A stretch of 36,138 nucleotides of DNA, taken from NCBI GenBank assembly GCA_944329445.1, contig CALVIH010000010.1:1-36138 (forward strand), in the 5' to 3' direction. Position 1 is the first letter of the stretch. Each line of letters begins with the position of its first letter. A program made the position numbers and the translations under genes. Under the pieces are notes generated by a model that made no database searches, was not told where the DNA came from, and saw only the letters and a program-made list of their open reading frames with translations. The DNA is from an uncultured Bacilli bacterium (GTDB lineage Bacteria; Bacillota_I; Bacilli_A; RF39; UBA660). Below are positions 1-6,950 of the stretch, piece by piece.

Positions 1-6
1 TATAAT

Positions 7-34
7 ATCATATACCCCCCCCCCCACTTGTCAA
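7..34 (-). promoter_or_regulatory. Promoter with an 11-G homopolymer in its spacer (candidate phase-variable switch)
   Basis: On the minus strand, -35 TTGACA (34-29) is followed by a 16-bp spacer and a -10-like TATGAT (12-7), which matches TATAAT at 5 of 6 positions. The spacer holds an uninterrupted run of 11 G (plus-strand C at 15-25), the only such tract in this AT-rich window. It reads leftward, so the gene it drives lies outside the window. It follows directly after the terminator of the thioredoxin-like lipoprotein gene. Slippage to 12 G would give the optimal 17-bp spacer. The promoter call is fairly good. Phase variation is inferred by analogy with poly-G/C spacer promoters of other bacteria. 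Confidence 0.55.
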
Positions 35-66
35 TTAAATTATGCTGTTGATAATTTATTACTAAA

Positions 67-91
67 AAAGAAGCTATTTATCAGCTTCTTT
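67..91 (-). terminator. Rho-independent terminator of the rpsB-tsf-lipoprotein operon
   Basis: A perfect 9-bp stem (AAAGAAGCT/AGCTTCTTT on the plus strand) encloses a 7-nt loop and is followed on the minus strand by a short T tract. The TAG stop codon of the lipoprotein gene (74-76) lies inside the hairpin. Confidence 0.85.
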
Positions 92-661
92 TGTCGTTGT
101 TTCTTCTATTAACATTTTATTAATTAAACTAGAAAAATTATCTTTTAAAGTATTTTTTTGTTCGTCCGTTATTATTTCTTCACTATCAGAGTTAATGGTT
201 CCGATGTATACACCAACTATGTTTCCTTTGTTTACAAATATTATCGTTGGGGCACTTATTCTTTTGTTCCCCTCATCATCAGATGCTATATAATCTGATA
301 AAAGATTAGCTAGTTCTTGATACTCTGTTGTATTATTATCTCTTATGTCCTTAAAGTTATAGTATAAAATACTTTCAACGTTTTTATCCTTAGCAACTTC
401 ATCCAAGACTGGAACTATTTCCTTACACAAACTACATGTTGGAAACCCAAGATATATAATACCAGTGCCATCGTTAATTGTATCTATAACGTTATTATAA
501 GTAGCATATTCGTAAATATTATCTTTTTTTACTTCGCTATATTCATCTTTAAATCTGATACTATCCGTACTAATATCATCTTCTACTTTTGTAACTTCTA
601 TGGTATCACAACCAGTTAATATAAGTAAAAAAGTTAGTACTACTGCCACTAACTTTTTCAT
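74..661 (-). CDS. Thioredoxin-like lipoprotein
   Basis: A predicted secreted, membrane-anchored protein of 195 aa. The N terminus is a lipoprotein signal peptide: two Lys, a hydrophobic stretch at residues 4-16, and lipobox LTGC with Cys18 as the lipid-bearing residue. A thioredoxin-fold segment follows at about residues 65-160, with CSLC (Cys76, Cys79) after the strand GIIYLGFPT and a later strand APTIIFVNKGNIVGVYIG, where the Pro before T matches the cis-Pro position of thioredoxins. The family is similar to bacteriocin-transport accessory or thiol-disulfide proteins. Substrate unknown. It starts 2 nt after the tsf stop, with GGTGA upstream of the ATG, so it is probably co-transcribed with rpsB-tsf. 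A redox role outside the membrane is inferred. Confidence 0.8.
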   Translation of the reverse strand: MKKLVAVVLTFLLILTGCDTIEVTKVEDDISTDSIRFKDEYSEVKKDNIYEYATYNNVIDTINDGTGIIYLGFPTCSLCKEIVPVLDEVAKDKNVESILYYNFKDIRDNNTTEYQELANLLSDYIASDDEGNKRISAPTIIFVNKGNIVGVYIGTINSDSEEIITDEQKNTLKDNFSSLINKMLIEETTTKEADK

Positions 662-663
662 TA

Positions 664-1536
664 TTATTCACCATTCATTTGAGCAGCTACTTCTTCAGCA
701 AAATTTTCTTGACGCTTTTCTAATCCTTCACCAACTTCGTACCTGATAACATCGATAATTTTACCACCATTATTGCTAACAAATTTTCCAACGGTAACAC
801 TATTATCCTTAACAAAGTCTTGTTCTTCAAGACATATTTCTTTATAGTACTTATTAATTCTACCCATTACCATCTTTTCAGCAATATTAGCTGGTTTTCC
901 TTCTGCCATTGCTTGCTCAGTTAAAATTTTCTTTTCGTTTTCTACTTGATCAGCTGGTACTTGTTCTTTAGTAACATATTCTGGGCGCATTGCAGCAGCA
1001 TGCATAGAAACATCTTTTGCAACTTCTTCAGACGCACCTTTAAGTAATGTTAAAACAGAAATTTTACCTCCCATATGAATGTATGAACCAAAATATTCAT
1101 CATCATTTTTCTCAAGTAATGTAAATCTTCTAAATGAAATTTTTTCTCCAATTGTTGCGGTCATTGAAGTAACATAATCATTTAACGTACCTTGATCATA
1201 AGAAAGAGCTAATGCCTCTTCGTTTGTCTTAGCATTACTACTTAAGATTGTTGTAGCAACGTCATCCATGAACTTTTGAAACTTTTCGTTCTTTGCGACG
1301 AAATCAGTTTCACAGTTAATTTCAAGAATAACTGCTTTATTACCATCTATTTTAATGGTAGATAAACCTTCAGCAGCAATTCTTCCTGCCTTTTTAGCAG
1401 CCTTCGCAATACCCTTTTCTCTTAACCATTCGGTTGCCTTCTTAATATCATTATCATTTTCTTCTAGAGCCTTTTTACAATCCATCATACCAGCTCCAGA
1501 GATATCTCTTAATTCTCTAATTAAACTTGCGTTCAT
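664..1536 (-). CDS. tsf: Translation elongation factor Ts
   Basis: Nucleotide exchange factor that regenerates EF-Tu-GTP. It is 290 aa, the usual length. The N-terminal UBA-like domain (about residues 1-50) has the hallmark IRELRDISGAGMMDCKKALEE, split here only by I/R at the start. The EF-Tu-contacting TDFVAKNEKF motif follows at about residue 80, then the core domains, where PADQVENEK and the C-terminal helix are recognisable. I chose the ATG at 1536 because it has a strong AAAAGGAG site and starts with the family's MNASLIREL. The reading frame continues 15 codons upstream without family similarity. It lies 55 nt downstream of rpsB, the classic rpsB-tsf pair. Confidence 0.97.
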   Translation of the reverse strand: MNASLIRELRDISGAGMMDCKKALEENDNDIKKATEWLREKGIAKAAKKAGRIAAEGLSTIKIDGNKAVILEINCETDFVAKNEKFQKFMDDVATTILSSNAKTNEEALALSYDQGTLNDYVTSMTATIGEKISFRRFTLLEKNDDEYFGSYIHMGGKISVLTLLKGASEEVAKDVSMHAAAMRPEYVTKEQVPADQVENEKKILTEQAMAEGKPANIAEKMVMGRINKYYKEICLEEQDFVKDNSVTVGKFVSNNGGKIIDVIRYEVGEGLEKRQENFAEEVAAQMNGE

Positions 1537-1561
1537 ATCCTTCTTCTCCTTTTTATAATTA

Positions 1562-1584
1562 AAGATGATTCTAACGATCATCTT
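1562..1584 (-). promoter_or_regulatory. Hairpin between rpsB and tsf (possible attenuator)
   Basis: A perfect 8-bp stem (AAGATGAT/ATCATCTT) with a 7-nt loop sits just after the rpsB stop. It lacks the U tract of a true terminator, because TAATTATAAAAAGGAG follows. It could partly terminate transcription, protect the 3' end of rpsB mRNA, or shape tsf translation. The structure is seen; the function is inferred. Confidence 0.5.
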
Positions 1585-1591
1585 ATATTTA

Positions 1592-2641
1592 TTATTTTGT
1601 TAAAGCTTTAACTAATTCATCTTTCTTTAATTTTGAATAACCTTCAATCTTAGCTTCTTTTGCCATAGCCTTTAATTCTACTACGGTTTTCTTTGCTAAA
1701 TCAACAACTTCTTCTTTAGCTTTACTAGCTACCTTCTTTACTGTTTTCTTAGCCTCTTCTACCTTAGGTTCTGCTTCTTTAGAAGCCTTTTTTACCTTTT
1801 CTTTTACTTCTTCTATCTTTTCTTCTACTACTGGAGTAACTTCCTTTACTTTCTTTTCTATAACTTCTTTAACGTCCTTAGCTAATTCTTTAACATCACT
1901 TACTACTTCCTTTGCAGCAGCCTTTGCTTTATCTTCTTCTGTTACGTAATCTTCAGTTGGTTTATTTGTTGCTTCACAAATAGCATTATTTAAAACTCCA
2001 AGCACGATTTTAACGGCACGAATAGCATCATCATTACCAGGAATCACGTAATCTACTAAATCTGGATCACAGTTAGTATCTACGATACCAAATACTGGTA
2101 TGTTTAATTTATGTGCTTCATTTATTGCGTTAAGTTCCTTTTTAGGATCAACGATAATCATTGCTTGTGGTAACTTTTTCATTTCTCTTAATCCGCAAAA
2201 ATAAGAGTTTAACTTATCATATTCTTTACGAATCTTAACTACTTCTTTCTTAGGTAACTTATCAAAAGTTCCATCTTTCTCCATTTTTTCAATTTGATCC
2301 AAACGGTTAATTCTTCTTCTAATCGTTCTAAAGTTAGTTAAAGTACCTCCTAACCAACGTTTTGAAACGTAGTAACTATCAGATCTTTTTGCTTCTTCTT
2401 CAGTAGCTTCCCCAGCTTGCTTTTTAGTTCCTACAAAAATAACCTTTCCACCGTTTGCGGCAATTTCCTTTAAAGCTTCATATGCTTCTTCGATTTTCTT
2501 TACTGTTTTTTGTAAGTCTATGATATAAATATCATCCCTTGCAGTAAAGATATACTCTTTCATTTTTGGGTTCCATCTTTTAGTTTGGTGACCAAAATGA
2601 ACACCTGCTTCTAAAAGATAGCTCATTGATACAACTGGCAT
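1592..2641 (-). CDS. rpsB: 30S ribosomal protein S2 with long helical C-terminal extension
   Basis: Small-subunit ribosomal protein; S2 joins the head/body region late in assembly and contacts S1 in many bacteria. Residues 1 to about 230 are a normal S2: [19 protein letters not shown] near the start, RWLGGTLTN at about 95-103, and [19 protein letters not shown] at about 188-206. The protein is 349 aa, about 100 longer than typical. Residues 235-312 are Lys/Glu/Ala/Val-rich and look like one long charged helix. Residues 313-349 resemble a Rho N-terminal/SAP-like helical motif ([19 protein letters not shown], then [11 protein letters not shown]). The ATG at 2641 has a strong AGGAGG site. The extension may bind RNA (inference). 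Confidence 0.96.
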
Positions 2642-2682
2642 TTCTTTTTTCCTCCTTTGTTTTCTCCTCCAAGCTTTTCATC

Positions 2683-2720
2683 TTTGCAAACTCATCCTCT
2701 TCGGACACGTGAGGTGCAAA
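2683..2720 (-). promoter_or_regulatory. Structured rpsB leader (candidate S2 autoregulatory element)
   Basis: The roughly 120-nt rpsB 5' UTR folds on paper into a two-part stem. An outer 6-bp helix TTTGCA/TGCAAA (plus 2715-2720 with 2683-2688) and an inner CCTC/GAGG helix (2711-2714 with 2696-2699) are separated by a one-sided bulge and close an 11-nt loop. A separate 8-bp hairpin TTTTTCTT/AAGAAAAA lies nearer the transcription start. S2 represses its own operon through such leaders in other bacteria. I could not match this one to a known class. Confidence 0.45.
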
Positions 2721-2768
2721 TCCAAACTTGTGTGTATTTTTTTCTTTCCTTTAAGAAAAACCATGCAT

Positions 2769-2798
2769 ATTATAACACATATTTATTATATGTTACAA
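2769..2798 (-). promoter_or_regulatory. rpsB operon promoter
   Basis: -35 TTGTAA (2798-2793), 18-bp spacer, extended -10 TGT-TATAAT (-10 hexamer 2774-2769). The predicted start near 2762 gives a leader of about 120 nt. Confidence 0.75.
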
Positions 2799-2823
2799 GG
2801 TGTTTTTTTATATTTTATAAAGA

Positions 2824-2849
2824 AAATCAAGCTAATTAAAGCCCGATTT
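2824..2849 (-). terminator. Terminator downstream of the Cys-rich gene
   Basis: A 10-bp stem with two G-U pairs (minus AAATCGGGCT/AGCTTGATTT) closes a 6-nt loop and is followed by a broken T run. A second weaker hairpin (TTTGATT/AATCAAA) lies just upstream. It separates the Cys-rich gene from rpsB. Confidence 0.65.
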
Positions 2850-2916
2850 CCTCATTTGATTCTTATTGTTTAATCAAACTATTAATGTGATTTTTTTATT
2901 TTTACGCTTTATAACA

Positions 2917-3549
2917 CTAAAAGCCCATACAAGAATTTATCCAGTCCAAGGCAAACTTACTATCAACATATGGTTTATCATTTACTATATTAATATACCA
3001 ATCATATTTTTCTTTTTCCATACAAGTTAGTGTTTCTTTATTTTTAATTTTTTTCTTCAAATATTCAGAATCTTCTTTTAATCTATCAAGTAGATATGTT
3101 TCAGTTTCTATTCCTGTGTACTCTTCTAATATTCTTGCTAGGCGGTCATGAAACAAAAGACAATCATAAACAAAACTTTCTGCGTCAGCAGTCTGTTCAC
3201 AAGGTCCACCTATTTTAGTTGGTTTAACACTTCTACCAAATAAAGGCCTTTGTTCTTCTTCTAATTTGCAACCACTATCTAATAAATTAACACAGGGTCC
3301 ACCTTTACCTAATATATCTATAACATCAATACCTTCATCTCTTGCCTTTAAATATAAAATAAACGTCCAAGCATCACCACAAAAACCAGTAGTAGGCTGG
3401 CATGAAATTAATGCATTTCCTTGTTTTAAAAGTTCTTTTATTTTTTCAACTTCTAATCCTGTTCTTTTATCATAAAACTGTCTTATAGAATATATACAGC
3501 CTACTGTTTTACAGCATGCTCCCCTTACATTTGGCGCACATAATTTCAT
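2917..3549 (-). CDS. Cysteine-rich conserved hypothetical protein, possible metal-binding
   Basis: A 210-aa soluble protein with 12 Cys, at residues 4, 12, 13, 18, 50, 57, 86, 94, 117, 130, 166 and 207. No signal peptide or membrane segment is visible. The layout GACCKTVGC near the start, GGPC at about 83-86, then DSGCKLEEEQRP followed by GR at about 92-106, resembles Firmicutes proteins related to the putative zinc/iron-chelating (YkgJ-type) group, where a GC-L...RP segment follows a CC pair. I do not recognise a specific function. It is monocistronic, with its own good promoter (3607-3634) and terminator. The ATG at 3549 follows a poor ribosome site and is the only ATG before the first Cys cluster. 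Confidence 0.75.
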   Translation of the reverse strand: MKLCAPNVRGACCKTVGCIYSIRQFYDKRTGLEVEKIKELLKQGNALISCQPTTGFCGDAWTFILYLKARDEGIDVIDILGKGGPCVNLLDSGCKLEEEQRPLFGRSVKPTKIGGPCEQTADAESFVYDCLLFHDRLARILEEYTGIETETYLLDRLKEDSEYLKKKIKNKETLTCMEKEKYDWYINIVNDKPYVDSKFALDWINSCMGF

Positions 3550-3606
3550 CTTTATAAGTTTCCATTTTAATGTTTTCCCCCATCAAATACAAAAAATATT
3601 ATGGTT

Positions 3607-3634
3607 ATTATACTTATTGTATTTAAAAAGTCAA
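3607..3634 (-). promoter_or_regulatory. Promoter of the Cys-rich gene
   Basis: -35 TTGACT (3634-3629), 16-bp spacer, -10 TATAAT (3612-3607). The -35 forms part of the 3' arm of the upstream terminator hairpin at 3625-3654. Confidence 0.75.
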
Positions 3635-3654
3635 GAAATCAAATCAGACTTTTT
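3625..3654 (-). terminator. Probable terminator of the priA operon
   Basis: An 8-bp stem AAAAAGTC/GACTTTTT with a 14-nt loop that has an inner GA/TC pairing. Its 3' arm runs into T's on the minus strand. It lies about 140 nt after the last gene and overlaps the next promoter's -35. Confidence 0.5.
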
Positions 3655-3794
3655 ATGACTTTTATAAACCATTTTATTGCTTTTTTCTTCTTTTACAATG
3701 AAATATATCCAAGATATTTATGGCCATCTGGTATACTATCTTCCTTAAATTATCTTTTCTTTATAAAGAATTATACAGCTACAAGTTAAACAGT
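3655..3794. other. Non-coding stretch between the MazG-like gene and the next promoter
   Basis: About 140 nt with no convincing gene on either strand. It holds a 14-bp palindrome TTCTTTATAAAGAA near 3758-3771 and a TATAAT-like box (3770-3775, minus) without a recognisable -35. It is most simply the 3' UTR of the priA operon. A small RNA cannot be excluded. Confidence 0.4.
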
Positions 3795-4142
3795 CTAATT
3801 TTTGTCTGCGTCACTTTGATCTACCGTTTTAATTAAAAACGTCTTCGTATCAAAGCCACCTTTTGCCTCTTTTTTTTGCTTTCTTGCATCTTCAATGTCA
3901 TTAAACGAAATATTATTTACCTCAGCTTTTTTCAACATTACCTCAAGTAAGTCTGCTAACTCTTCTTTTATTTCATCAGGTGTTCTAGATGCTATAACTT
4001 CTTTTACTTCTTCTAAAAGCTTATTATCTAATGCATTTTCAAAATCATTATCATTTAATGTCTCGATTAATGCATATTCACCATTCTTTTCTATTTTATC
4101 TGGGATTTTATCTCTTACTAATTTATTAAATATCTTCTGCAT
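3795..4142 (-). CDS. MazG-like / phosphoribosyl-ATP pyrophosphohydrolase-like nucleotide pyrophosphatase
   Basis: A 115-aa all-alpha NTP pyrophosphohydrolase of the MazG/PRA-PH superfamily, predicted to hydrolyse non-canonical nucleoside triphosphates to monophosphate and PPi. The family hallmark FNKLVRDKIPDKI is at residues 5-17. The metal-binding helices carry EEVKE at about 44-48 and EELADLLEV at about 60-68. No his genes are nearby, so a histidine-biosynthetic role is unlikely. It overlaps the upstream HD-domain gene by 17 nt, which suggests translational coupling and a shared nucleotide clean-up role. The C-terminal tail after residue 95 is not conserved as far as I can judge. Confidence 0.85.
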   Translation of the reverse strand: MQKIFNKLVRDKIPDKIEKNGEYALIETLNDNDFENALDNKLLEEVKEVIASRTPDEIKEELADLLEVMLKKAEVNNISFNDIEDARKQKKEAKGGFDTKTFLIKTVDQSDADKN

Positions 4143-4776
4143 TCTTAATTTCCTTTATGTTTTTAATATCTTCTATTAAAGTTTTAAATATTTCGTCATC
4201 ATCGTACTTAGGTCTGTCATATTCTACCCAAAAATCACTAGCACAATTAGAAGCTTTATCTATTTCAGATGCTCTGTTTCCATAAAAAGGTAAGTCTTCT
4301 CTTGCTCTTTCGTATGAAAAAACGCCTTTTAGGTCATAGACCTTAGCCTGAAAATCACATTCTATTTTATCAATGTGATAACAAAAGACAGACTCTTTTG
4401 TTGTTTGATCATTATACTCATTTAAAAGTTCTTCTATTTCTCTTTGTTTAAATAAACCATTCGTTATCTTTTTAACGTACTTTTTACCAAGCTCTTTTTT
4501 CTCATCTTTCGTAATATCGGTTCTTATGGTAAGGTCTCCCATCAATATTTCCTCTAGCTCGTGAAGGGATAACATTCTAAGAACTTTATACATATCTAAA
4601 TCAAGTTTATACTCACTATCAATTGCAATTGCTAAAATTAAGCATCCATATATGTGCTCTGCTACTGACTCTAATCTTTCCTTTTTTATTTCCATTTCTA
4701 TCCAACCGGTTCTTACCTTTTCCTTTAGCTTGTTAGCCAGTAAGTAAAATCTTATAATATTACCATTTTTGTTCAT
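4126..4776 (-). CDS. HD-domain hydrolase, YfbR / 5'-deoxynucleotidase-like
   Basis: A 216-aa protein of the HD phosphohydrolase superfamily that resembles YfbR-type 5'-deoxynucleotidases, which remove phosphate from (d)NMPs. Visible signs are FYLLANKLKEKVRTGWI at the start, SVAEHIYG at about 37-44 (first metal His), SLHELEEILMGDLT at about 69-82 (the HD position reads HE here), and a later HIDKIECDFQAKVYDL segment with the downstream Asp. The HE in place of canonical HD is known in this subgroup. The ATG at 4776 has an AGGAGG site that overlaps the TAG stop of priA. Operon priA-HD-MazG. The substrate is inferred from the family. Confidence 0.8.
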   Translation of the reverse strand: MNKNGNIIRFYLLANKLKEKVRTGWIEMEIKKERLESVAEHIYGCLILAIAIDSEYKLDLDMYKVLRMLSLHELEEILMGDLTIRTDITKDEKKELGKKYVKKITNGLFKQREIEELLNEYNDQTTKESVFCYHIDKIECDFQAKVYDLKGVFSYERAREDLPFYGNRASEIDKASNCASDFWVEYDRPKYDDDEIFKTLIEDIKNIKEIKNAEDI

Positions 4777-4784
4777 AATTCCTC

Positions 4785-6950
4785 CTATAAATTAATCGGG
4801 TTAAAGTCAAGTTCTATTTTTAGCTTGCTATTTCCCTCGTATATTTTTATTAAATCATTTAAGGCAGTATATAGTTTTTCATCCTTTTTATATTTTAAAA
4901 TAACCTGGAAATTAAAGTTTTTATTTACTTTTAGAACGCTAGCCATTGAAGGACCTAAAATACTTGTCGTACTACTTAATTTTTTCCTTAAAAACAAACT
5001 TACCTTCTTTGCTTCGTTTATTCCATAGTCAAAATCTTTAGATGTTATTTTAATTAGCATAATAAAGCAATATGGTGGATAATTAAGTTTTTTTCTAATA
5101 AACATTTCCCTTGCAAAAAATCCTTTATAATCATGATTTTTTGCACAAACAATACTATAGTGTTCCGGATTATAAGTTTGAACTATAGCTACTCCTTCTT
5201 TTTCGGCACGTCCGGCACGCCCTATTACTTGATCAAGTAGGCTAAACGTTTGCTCACTACTTCTAAAGTTTGGAATGTTAAGCCCTTGATCCGCATTTAT
5301 CACACCAACTAAGGTAACGTTTGGAAAATTAAGACCTTTAGCAATCATTTGGGTACCTACTAATATATCATATTTTCCATCGTTAAAATCATTAATTATT
5401 TTAAAATGAGAACCTTTTTTACTAGTTGTGTCAGCGTCCATTCTAACAACGTTTGCGAAAGGAAATAAGGTTTTTATTTCCTCTTCTATCATTTGTGTTC
5501 CAGAGCCTACCTCTCTTACCTTCCCCTCTTTACAACTAGGGCACGTTTCCTTTCTTACTTCCGCATAGCCACAATAATGGCACCTCATCATCCCAGAAGT
5601 TTTATGATAAGTTAAAGTTATATCACAATTAGGACACTTAAAAACGTAACCACAGGAAGGACAAGTTAAATAATTAGCATATCCCCTTCTGTTTAATAAA
5701 AGCATTATTTGTTCTTTTCTATTTAAACGTTCTTTGATGCTTCTTATTAAACTTTCTGAAAATAATTTATTTCCCTTTCGAATTTCTTTTTTCATGTCCA
5801 CTATTTCAACTTTAGGAAGCGGTTTATCATTAACCCTTTTGTCTAATTCAAGGAATCTATAATAACCTTTCTTTGCCCTCGCAAAACTTTCAATCGTAGG
5901 TGTTGCACTACCAAGCACAACTGGGCAATTATGAGTTTTAGATCTTTTGGAAGCAATATCTAACGTGCTATACCTTGGATTATTTTCCTGTTTATAACTT
6001 TCCGAGTGTTCCTCATCAATTATTATTATACCAATGTTTTTAAGTGGCGCAAAAATGGCAGATCTAGCCCCAATAACTAACTTTACTTCACCACGGTTAA
6101 TCCTTCTAAATTCATCATACCTTTCACCATCTGATAATGAGGAATGAAGAATTGCGATAAGAGACCCAAAAACGCCCTTAAAACGAGCGGTTATTTGAGG
6201 GGTTAAACTTATTTCTGGAACCAATATTATAGCGGTTTTACCTTGTTTTAAAACCTCTTTTACAACGTCTATATAAACTTCTGTTTTACCAGAGCCAGTA
6301 ACACCATAAAGGAGATAAACCAAAGTGTTATTAAGTCCTTGTTTTATCTCGTTTGATACTTTTTGCTGGCTTTGGGTAAGAGTTACAGTCTTTAAATCAA
6401 CCGTTCCAGAAACCTTCCGATAGATCTCTTCTTTAAACTCCATTACAATATTTTTTTCCATAAGTTTTTTTAGTGATGACCTACTTTTTATCTCACTTTT
6501 CAAAACCAACTCATTATCTGTTAAAAGCTTAATTATTTCTAATTGTGCTTTAGTTTTTACCTCATTGTGATTAACGTTTTCATTTAATTTTACATATGTT
6601 TTGGTTTTAGCTTTAGCACTCGTCTTATGGTTTGCTTTCAAAGCTTTAGGAAGCATCGCTTGATAGGTGTATATCAAAGAGCACAAATAGCGTTCACTCA
6701 TGAATTTACCAAGCTTAATTAACTCGTCATTTAACACTGGTTCTTCATCAATGACCTTAAGAACACCCTTAACGTCATAATCTTCTGGTTTTACGTCATA
6801 ATCTAAAACAAACCCCTCAACAATACGGTTTGAAAATGGCACCAAAACACGTTTACCTATTATGTTATTACATGCGTCTTTAGAGACATGATAAGTAAAA
6901 GTCATGTCGTTTGATTTTACTCTGGTTTCAATTAGAACTTTTACATACAT
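4785..6950 (-). CDS. priA: Primosomal protein N' (replication restart helicase PriA)
   Basis: Superfamily 2 3'-5' helicase that recognises stalled forks and recombination intermediates and reloads the replisome. It is 721 aa, near the usual length. The N-terminal 3'-DNA-end-binding domain occupies about 1-105. Walker A GVTGSGKTEVY is at about 217-227 and the DEEH box at about 315. The zinc domain has four CxxC pairs (CPSC, CPNC, CHYC, CPSC) between about 430 and 475. Motifs GTQMIAKGLNFPNVTLVGV and QVIGRAGRAEKEG follow. I chose the ATG at 6950, which has an AAAGGAG site 8 nt away; the longer form would need a TTG start. It leads the operon with the HD and MazG-like genes. Confidence 0.97.
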   Translation of the reverse strand: MYVKVLIETRVKSNDMTFTYHVSKDACNNIIGKRVLVPFSNRIVEGFVLDYDVKPEDYDVKGVLKVIDEEPVLNDELIKLGKFMSERYLCSLIYTYQAMLPKALKANHKTSAKAKTKTYVKLNENVNHNEVKTKAQLEIIKLLTDNELVLKSEIKSRSSLKKLMEKNIVMEFKEEIYRKVSGTVDLKTVTLTQSQQKVSNEIKQGLNNTLVYLLYGVTGSGKTEVYIDVVKEVLKQGKTAIILVPEISLTPQITARFKGVFGSLIAILHSSLSDGERYDEFRRINRGEVKLVIGARSAIFAPLKNIGIIIIDEEHSESYKQENNPRYSTLDIASKRSKTHNCPVVLGSATPTIESFARAKKGYYRFLELDKRVNDKPLPKVEIVDMKKEIRKGNKLFSESLIRSIKERLNRKEQIMLLLNRRGYANYLTCPSCGYVFKCPNCDITLTYHKTSGMMRCHYCGYAEVRKETCPSCKEGKVREVGSGTQMIEEEIKTLFPFANVVRMDADTTSKKGSHFKIINDFNDGKYDILVGTQMIAKGLNFPNVTLVGVINADQGLNIPNFRSSEQTFSLLDQVIGRAGRAEKEGVAIVQTYNPEHYSIVCAKNHDYKGFFAREMFIRKKLNYPPYCFIMLIKITSKDFDYGINEAKKVSLFLRKKLSSTTSILGPSMASVLKVNKNFNFQVILKYKKDEKLYTALNDLIKIYEGNSKLKIELDFNPINL

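Follow-up and report, generated by a model that had tools for sequence, protein, structure and literature searches.

Here we report that the promoter-like element at the first positions of a 36,138-nucleotide stretch (hereafter the window, which is the entire contig C10 of a metagenome-assembled genome of 1,167,751 bases in 59 contigs) belongs to a promoter system that is found at many loci and across the genus, with about a dozen copies in its own genome and up to about 30 in relatives. The module consists, in order, of a DnaA-box-like site, a TTGAC -35 element, a pure G tract, and an extended -10 element TGnTATTATnAACA. As the best explanation, and a probable one, we propose that this dispersed module makes its target genes phase-variable through slippage in the poly-G tract. 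Poly-G spacer promoters have been described in a small number of spirochaetes and Gram-negative bacteria, where they occur at single loci or in small families. The first-pass annotation had recognized a promoter with a poly-G spacer, and this part stands; the multi-locus, genus-wide nature of the element and its upstream DnaA-box-like site had been missed.

The window copy and its recurrence

The features discussed below are as follows (window positions, unless a contig is named).

1-57, minus strand: dispersed promoter module, repeated at C9 and partly at C37 (contig end)
2-7, minus strand: TATTAT, the -10 hexamer conserved family-wide, with its TGA extension at window 8-10
7-12, minus strand: TATGAT, the -10 element of the first-pass annotation, probably not the -10
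15-25, minus strand: variable spacer with a pure G11 tract, G10 in the own-genome copies at C9 and C37
29-34, minus strand: -35 hexamer TTGACA, class B (AGT between hexamer and tract)
46-54, minus strand: DnaA-box-like TTATCAACA, which lies 38 bp from the -10 and departs from TTWTNCACA at one position
66-92, no strand given: terminator-like hairpin that ends the upstream gene and sets the module apart from it
74-661, minus strand: thioredoxin-like lipoprotein gene, upstream of the module and not its target, used as synteny anchor
1-57 in the window, 2725-3720 in C9 (L168), and 1-717 in C11 (L187): junction regions

Read on the minus strand from position 34 to 2, the window gives TTGACA AGT GGGGGGGGGGG TATATGA TATTAT, and the letters agree with the earlier description of TTGACA, G11, and TATGAT with 16 bp between the two hexamers. 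That no comparable run exists elsewhere was likewise borne out, the longest other G/C runs in the 36-kb window being C5 and G4, while a first-order model predicts about 5e-4 runs of at least 11 bases. The promoter hexamers alone are not significant because, despite a promoter-scanner score of 11/12 for the window pair, three promoter-like sites were seen in 700 bases versus a mean of 3.8 in shuffled sequences. The G11 tract is thus real and exceptional, and the hexamers are unexceptional in AT-rich DNA. The contig stops 14 bases beyond the tract. On the other side, the hairpin was scored on the plus strand (one found versus 0.1 expected), and by direct reading its minus strand likewise finishes with a T run; the thioredoxin-like gene has orthologs across the genus and matches PF00085 with an E-value of 0.0016, below the cut-off.

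A genome-wide scan for other G/C runs in promoter spacers, which had been proposed as a check, revealed that 11 of the 12 tracts of at least eight G in this 1.17-Mb genome occupy the same promoter context, namely TTGAC, 0-4 bases, G8-11, and an extended TATTAT-type -10 where the contig continues. An additional copy with an interrupted tract (G5AG6) is located at C7:205. The modules at C9 and C37 are 98% identical to the window copy over 57 bp and 96% identical over 47 bp, respectively. Outside the module, the genome has a single G8 tract (G000:C12:7935, L065 4936), which lies 9 bases before an ATG of a 692-aa repeat protein and could act at translation.

Among the 59 genomes searched, 16 contain the pattern with at least eight G, namely the own genome, 12 of its 17 congeners, and three further genera in the same family. 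The 23 genomes from other families all lack it, and a reversed control pattern gave zero hits across all 59. A scan of named genomes returned 30 stretches with the pattern, nearly all from uncultured Bacilli or metagenome-assembled genomes. The relatives of the own genome are mostly deposited under the name uncultured Bacilli, and several come from samples with the label 'Lapin'. About 30 module copies are present in the congener G014, and one of its contigs carries seven tract-bearing promoters, each preceding a tandem paralog of about 215 aa. Other arrangements were also observed. In another genus of the family (G034; L194, L195, and L239), G9-11 is followed by TAGTTATnG TATAAT with no obvious upstream box, and these copies precede pairs of secreted proteins. 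A second module class combines Gn and TATAAT or TACAAT, at spacers of 15 to 20, with a long common leader AATCCACATTC..AAGAAGGG (L192 (G012:C6) 800-6340; L056 7738 (G000:C4)).

Promoter anatomy and the DnaA-box-like site

We collected 102 distinct copies of the module and aligned the 95 copies of the own genus at the -10 element. The TG of the extended -10 is present in 94 of them, and TATTAT in nearly all (with A at the fourth position in five), followed by nAACA, whereas TATGAT, located five bases upstream of TATTAT, is found in 46 copies only. Because of this difference in conservation, the -10 element is most likely the TATTAT at window positions 2-7, as part of an extended TGnTATTAT, and the previously assigned TATGAT was rejected. 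The window spacer would therefore be 21 bp, not 16 bp, and the earlier expectation that gain of one G creates an optimal 17-bp spacing no longer applies, as expansion would lengthen the spacer further.

The copies were divided into class A (TTGAC, up to two bases, then G) and class B (TTGACA followed by two or three bases). In class A, 67 of 82 assembled copies have a spacer of 16-17 bp, with tracts of 7-11 G and a mode of 9; in class B, which includes the window copy, 19 of 20 have assembled spacers of 18-21 bp (for four G034 copies TATTGT was counted as the -10; with TATAAT their spacers would be 18-21 bp). Within the own genome, the spacers span 14-21 bp. The proposal that spacing matters is thus upheld for class A, which seems to work best at 16-17 bp, and a single 17-bp optimum for every copy was rejected in view of class B. 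Longer tracts in class A go with a shorter remainder of the spacer (rho -0.52, n=76). This is evidence only for constrained total spacing, since the copies are related to one another and part of the correlation arises trivially from base changes at the edge of the tract. Together, the class A spacing and the extended -10 show the sequence hallmarks of a working promoter with constrained spacing. A homopolymer between the -35 and -10 elements, as in the porA and tp0126 promoters, is present in the window copy and about 100 others.

In most copies the DnaA-box consensus, TTWTNCACA, is matched upstream of the -35 element, by TTTTCCACA or by one of its variants. In the 95 bp preceding each of 88 promoters, boxes of the strict pattern were found 67 times in forward and once in reverse orientation, and 60 of the 67 forward boxes end 35-37 bp before the -10. 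This fixed position and orientation hold across the family, the window copy having one mismatch; the whole 36-kb window contains two matches to the consensus, and the same type of 9-mer clusters around the dnaA gene of this genome. The distance from the box to the -10 is about 36 bp in both classes despite the TTGACA of class B being shifted about 3 bp further upstream, which suggests that a box-binding protein, rather than the -35 element alone, positions the polymerase. This putative protein may be DnaA, which acts as a transcription factor in other systems (PMC8203912, PMC4447404). Our literature search found nothing on a DnaA box together with phase-variable promoters. More tentatively, DnaA may bind the box, so that surface phase variation might be coupled to the replication cycle and to DnaA activity; the G tract would then determine how far DnaA lies from the polymerase. 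We consider this extended scenario possible but doubtful.

Target genes

For 94 copies the downstream gene lies in the available DNA, and signal or membrane segments were called by simple rules. By these rules, 77 of the 94 targets have an N-terminal signal or membrane segment, including 54 array-type proteins with a short N-terminal hydrophobic helix, 10 proteins with the MGVxKNxVGRPS motif, and 13 others. The targets thus look mostly surface-exposed or secreted, in line with the initial guess of a surface protein, and some are cytoplasmic, such as an acetyltransferase and a sigma factor. In the tandem arrays, each gene has its own promoter module. The model of an array protein (mean pLDDT 84) has an N-terminal helix and a beta-rich domain, with no confident structural match. 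Array proteins give only weak profile matches, to SipW, camelysin, and DUF11; for SipW/TasA (camelysin) the best E-values were 0.03 (TIGR04088) and 2.3e-4 (PF12389, 3 of 18 members), none shown to exceed the curated cut-off. The label 'SipW/TasA family' was therefore rejected as unproven.

Two further targets in the own genome are of a different kind. One is a second sigma-70 factor with a long C-terminal extension in addition to regions 1.2 to 4, which is found under a poly-G promoter in three species (L057 3357-5585 (G000:C5), L089 (G007), and L114 (G012)). The other is a small protein that by reading resembles YukD, with no profile match, and is followed by small genes; both of those tested encode WXG100 proteins. 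This operon, of the type VII secretion type, has a poly-G promoter in two species (L058 5105-7375 (G000:C6) and L100 (G014)).

The window contig ends before the target gene of its promoter, which had been placed to the left of the window. In G005, G009, and G013, the thioredoxin-like lipoprotein gene is followed by an MGVxKNxVGRPS (MGV) gene, with frr next in G009 and G013; in G004, G011, G012, G014, and G017, frr directly follows the thioredoxin-like gene. In the own genome, contig C9 has the order fmt-promoter-MGV-frr, and C11 begins 21 bases before a second MGV gene, which is followed by rlmN; fmt adjoins rlmN in several relatives. Exchanging partners at the repeated promoter among C9, C10, and C11 restores both conserved gene orders, trx-frr and fmt-rlmN. 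For this reason C9 probably reflects a chimeric assembly across the repeated promoter, and the most likely target of the window promoter is the 295-aa MGV gene currently placed at C9:2725-3612; less probably, the repeat mediated a genuine rearrangement. Synteny thus agrees with a target on the left and points to a protein with a single transmembrane segment, encoded before frr. In G010:C31 (L110, L160), the thioredoxin-like gene is separated from the poly-G promoter by an IS30-like transposase. The 18-bp inverted repeat GGAAATTCGACTTTTGGG flanks the transposase, and a G8 run adjoins one end.

Tract-length differences and the proposed mechanism

The variable tract length proposed earlier was found in comparisons of paralogous and cross-species copies; near-identical copies differ by 1-3 G. 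Within the own genome, the window tract is G11 and those at C9 and C37 are G10. In G014, tracts of G10 and G9 were found in two copies that differ by two substitutions and one indel across 140 flanking bases, and tracts of G7 and G9 in two regions that share 97% identity over 636 bp. In G005, the tracts of a pair with similar promoter flanks are G6 and G9, which places TTGACA and TAATAT 16 and 19 bp apart. The promoters of the sigma-factor orthologs have spacers of 14 (own), 16 (G007), and 17 bp (G012). Overall, 14 of 37 closest-paralog pairs differ in tract length versus about six expected from the indel rate in the flanks, a modest excess, and the 37 pairs are non-independent. Since both MutS and MutL are present, no repair defect would raise slippage, and loss of mismatch repair was rejected as its driver.

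The anatomy, recurrence, spacing, tract differences, and target classes described above are observations; slippage in populations, an effect on transcription, and a role of the box protein are our inferences. Slippage during replication would alter both how far the upstream elements lie from the -10 and their helical phase relative to it, so that each target could be tuned or switched independently and reversibly by its own tract. As class B spacers are assembled at 18-21 bp and that of the window is 21 bp, the window copy is predicted to be in a weak or off state, unless the box protein compensates.

Several observations speak against phase variation, including the cytoplasmic targets, a window spacer not near 17 bp, the presence of MutS and MutL, the modest excess of tract changes, and the near-uniform tracts of G014 (G9 in 27 of 31). 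In Treponema pallidum tprL, poly-G lengths of 7-11 coexist, with G9 dominant (PMC7864442); both this range and this mode match those found here, and uniform consensus lengths are for that reason not decisive. The main rival is a fixed regulon, in which the G tract is a structural spacer whose length is under selection and does not switch, and control is exerted by the box protein (DnaA or another) or a dedicated sigma factor. It would account for the same distance from box to -10 in both classes, the tight class A spacing, the G014 tracts, the intact mismatch repair, and an interrupted G009 copy (ACTCAGTG6 versus ACTCG9) that keeps the overall spacing. However, a promoter with a box and a spacer needs no pure G run, which is rare in DNA of 30% GC; near-identical copies differ in their tracts, and the own-genome spacers are widely spread, which makes a fixed regulon rather unlikely.

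Two other explanations bear on the repeats and on the tract itself. The repeated promoter could be a recombination hotspot that spreads or shuffles surface genes by homologous recombination, the G tract being incidental, and the repeats do join different neighbours on C9, C10, and C11 and in G005; but these junctions may be assembly chimeras, and the many diverged copies in G014 and elsewhere conserve promoter elements rather than long identical repeats, so that we give this scenario very little credence. The length of a long G run may be wrong by about one base in a short-read assembly, and the window tract lies close to a contig end; yet the same architecture occurs inside contigs from independent metagenome projects. 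An assembly or sequencing artefact is thus extremely improbable and, for the existence of the tract, effectively refuted, while its exact length, G10 or G11, is uncertain. Phase variation through the G tract remains our preferred reading.

In tract position, the module appears closest to Neisseria meningitidis porA and T. pallidum tp0126, in which poly-G also lies between the -35 and -10 elements and a total of about 17 bp is optimal (PMC7864442), compared with the modal 16-17 bp of class A. Those promoters are single loci, whereas one genome can hold up to about 30 copies of the present module, which also has a DnaA-box-like site and an extended TATTAT -10. In serving a paralogous family, it seems most similar to T. 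pallidum tprE/G/J/L, surface-protein genes with a poly-G of 7-11 in each promoter (PMC7864442) and, in tprL, the same mode of G9; the tpr tract, however, directly precedes the transcription start (by 4 nt in tprL) and is not in the core spacer. With respect to a regulator site beyond the tract, the nearest counterpart is probably Bordetella fim2/fim3/fimX, where a C-stretch between the regulator site and the -10 sets their distance (PMC1891110); in contrast to this Bvg-controlled system, the site here resembles a DnaA box and a recognizable TTGAC is present. Mycoplasma gallisepticum vlhA genes also form surface-gene arrays with a repeat-bearing promoter for each gene, but their repeats are GAA and lie upstream of the promoters (PMC6258824), whereas here poly-G is inside the core spacer. 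Our literature search returned no match for RF39 together with phase variation.

Here, uncultured Bacilli with small genomes carry the module at between a dozen and about 30 loci each, mostly before surface-type proteins and also before a second sigma factor and an operon for WXG100 secretion. Changes in poly-G length during DNA copying probably turn these targets up, down, or off. If real, this would be a population-diversification system in a little-studied lineage, one that can be checked in existing reads by counting G. The conserved DnaA-box-like site offers a testable link between replication control and surface variation, and, if the DnaA reading is true, one gut-type lineage of Bacilli would tie a large combinatorial surface repertoire to replication.
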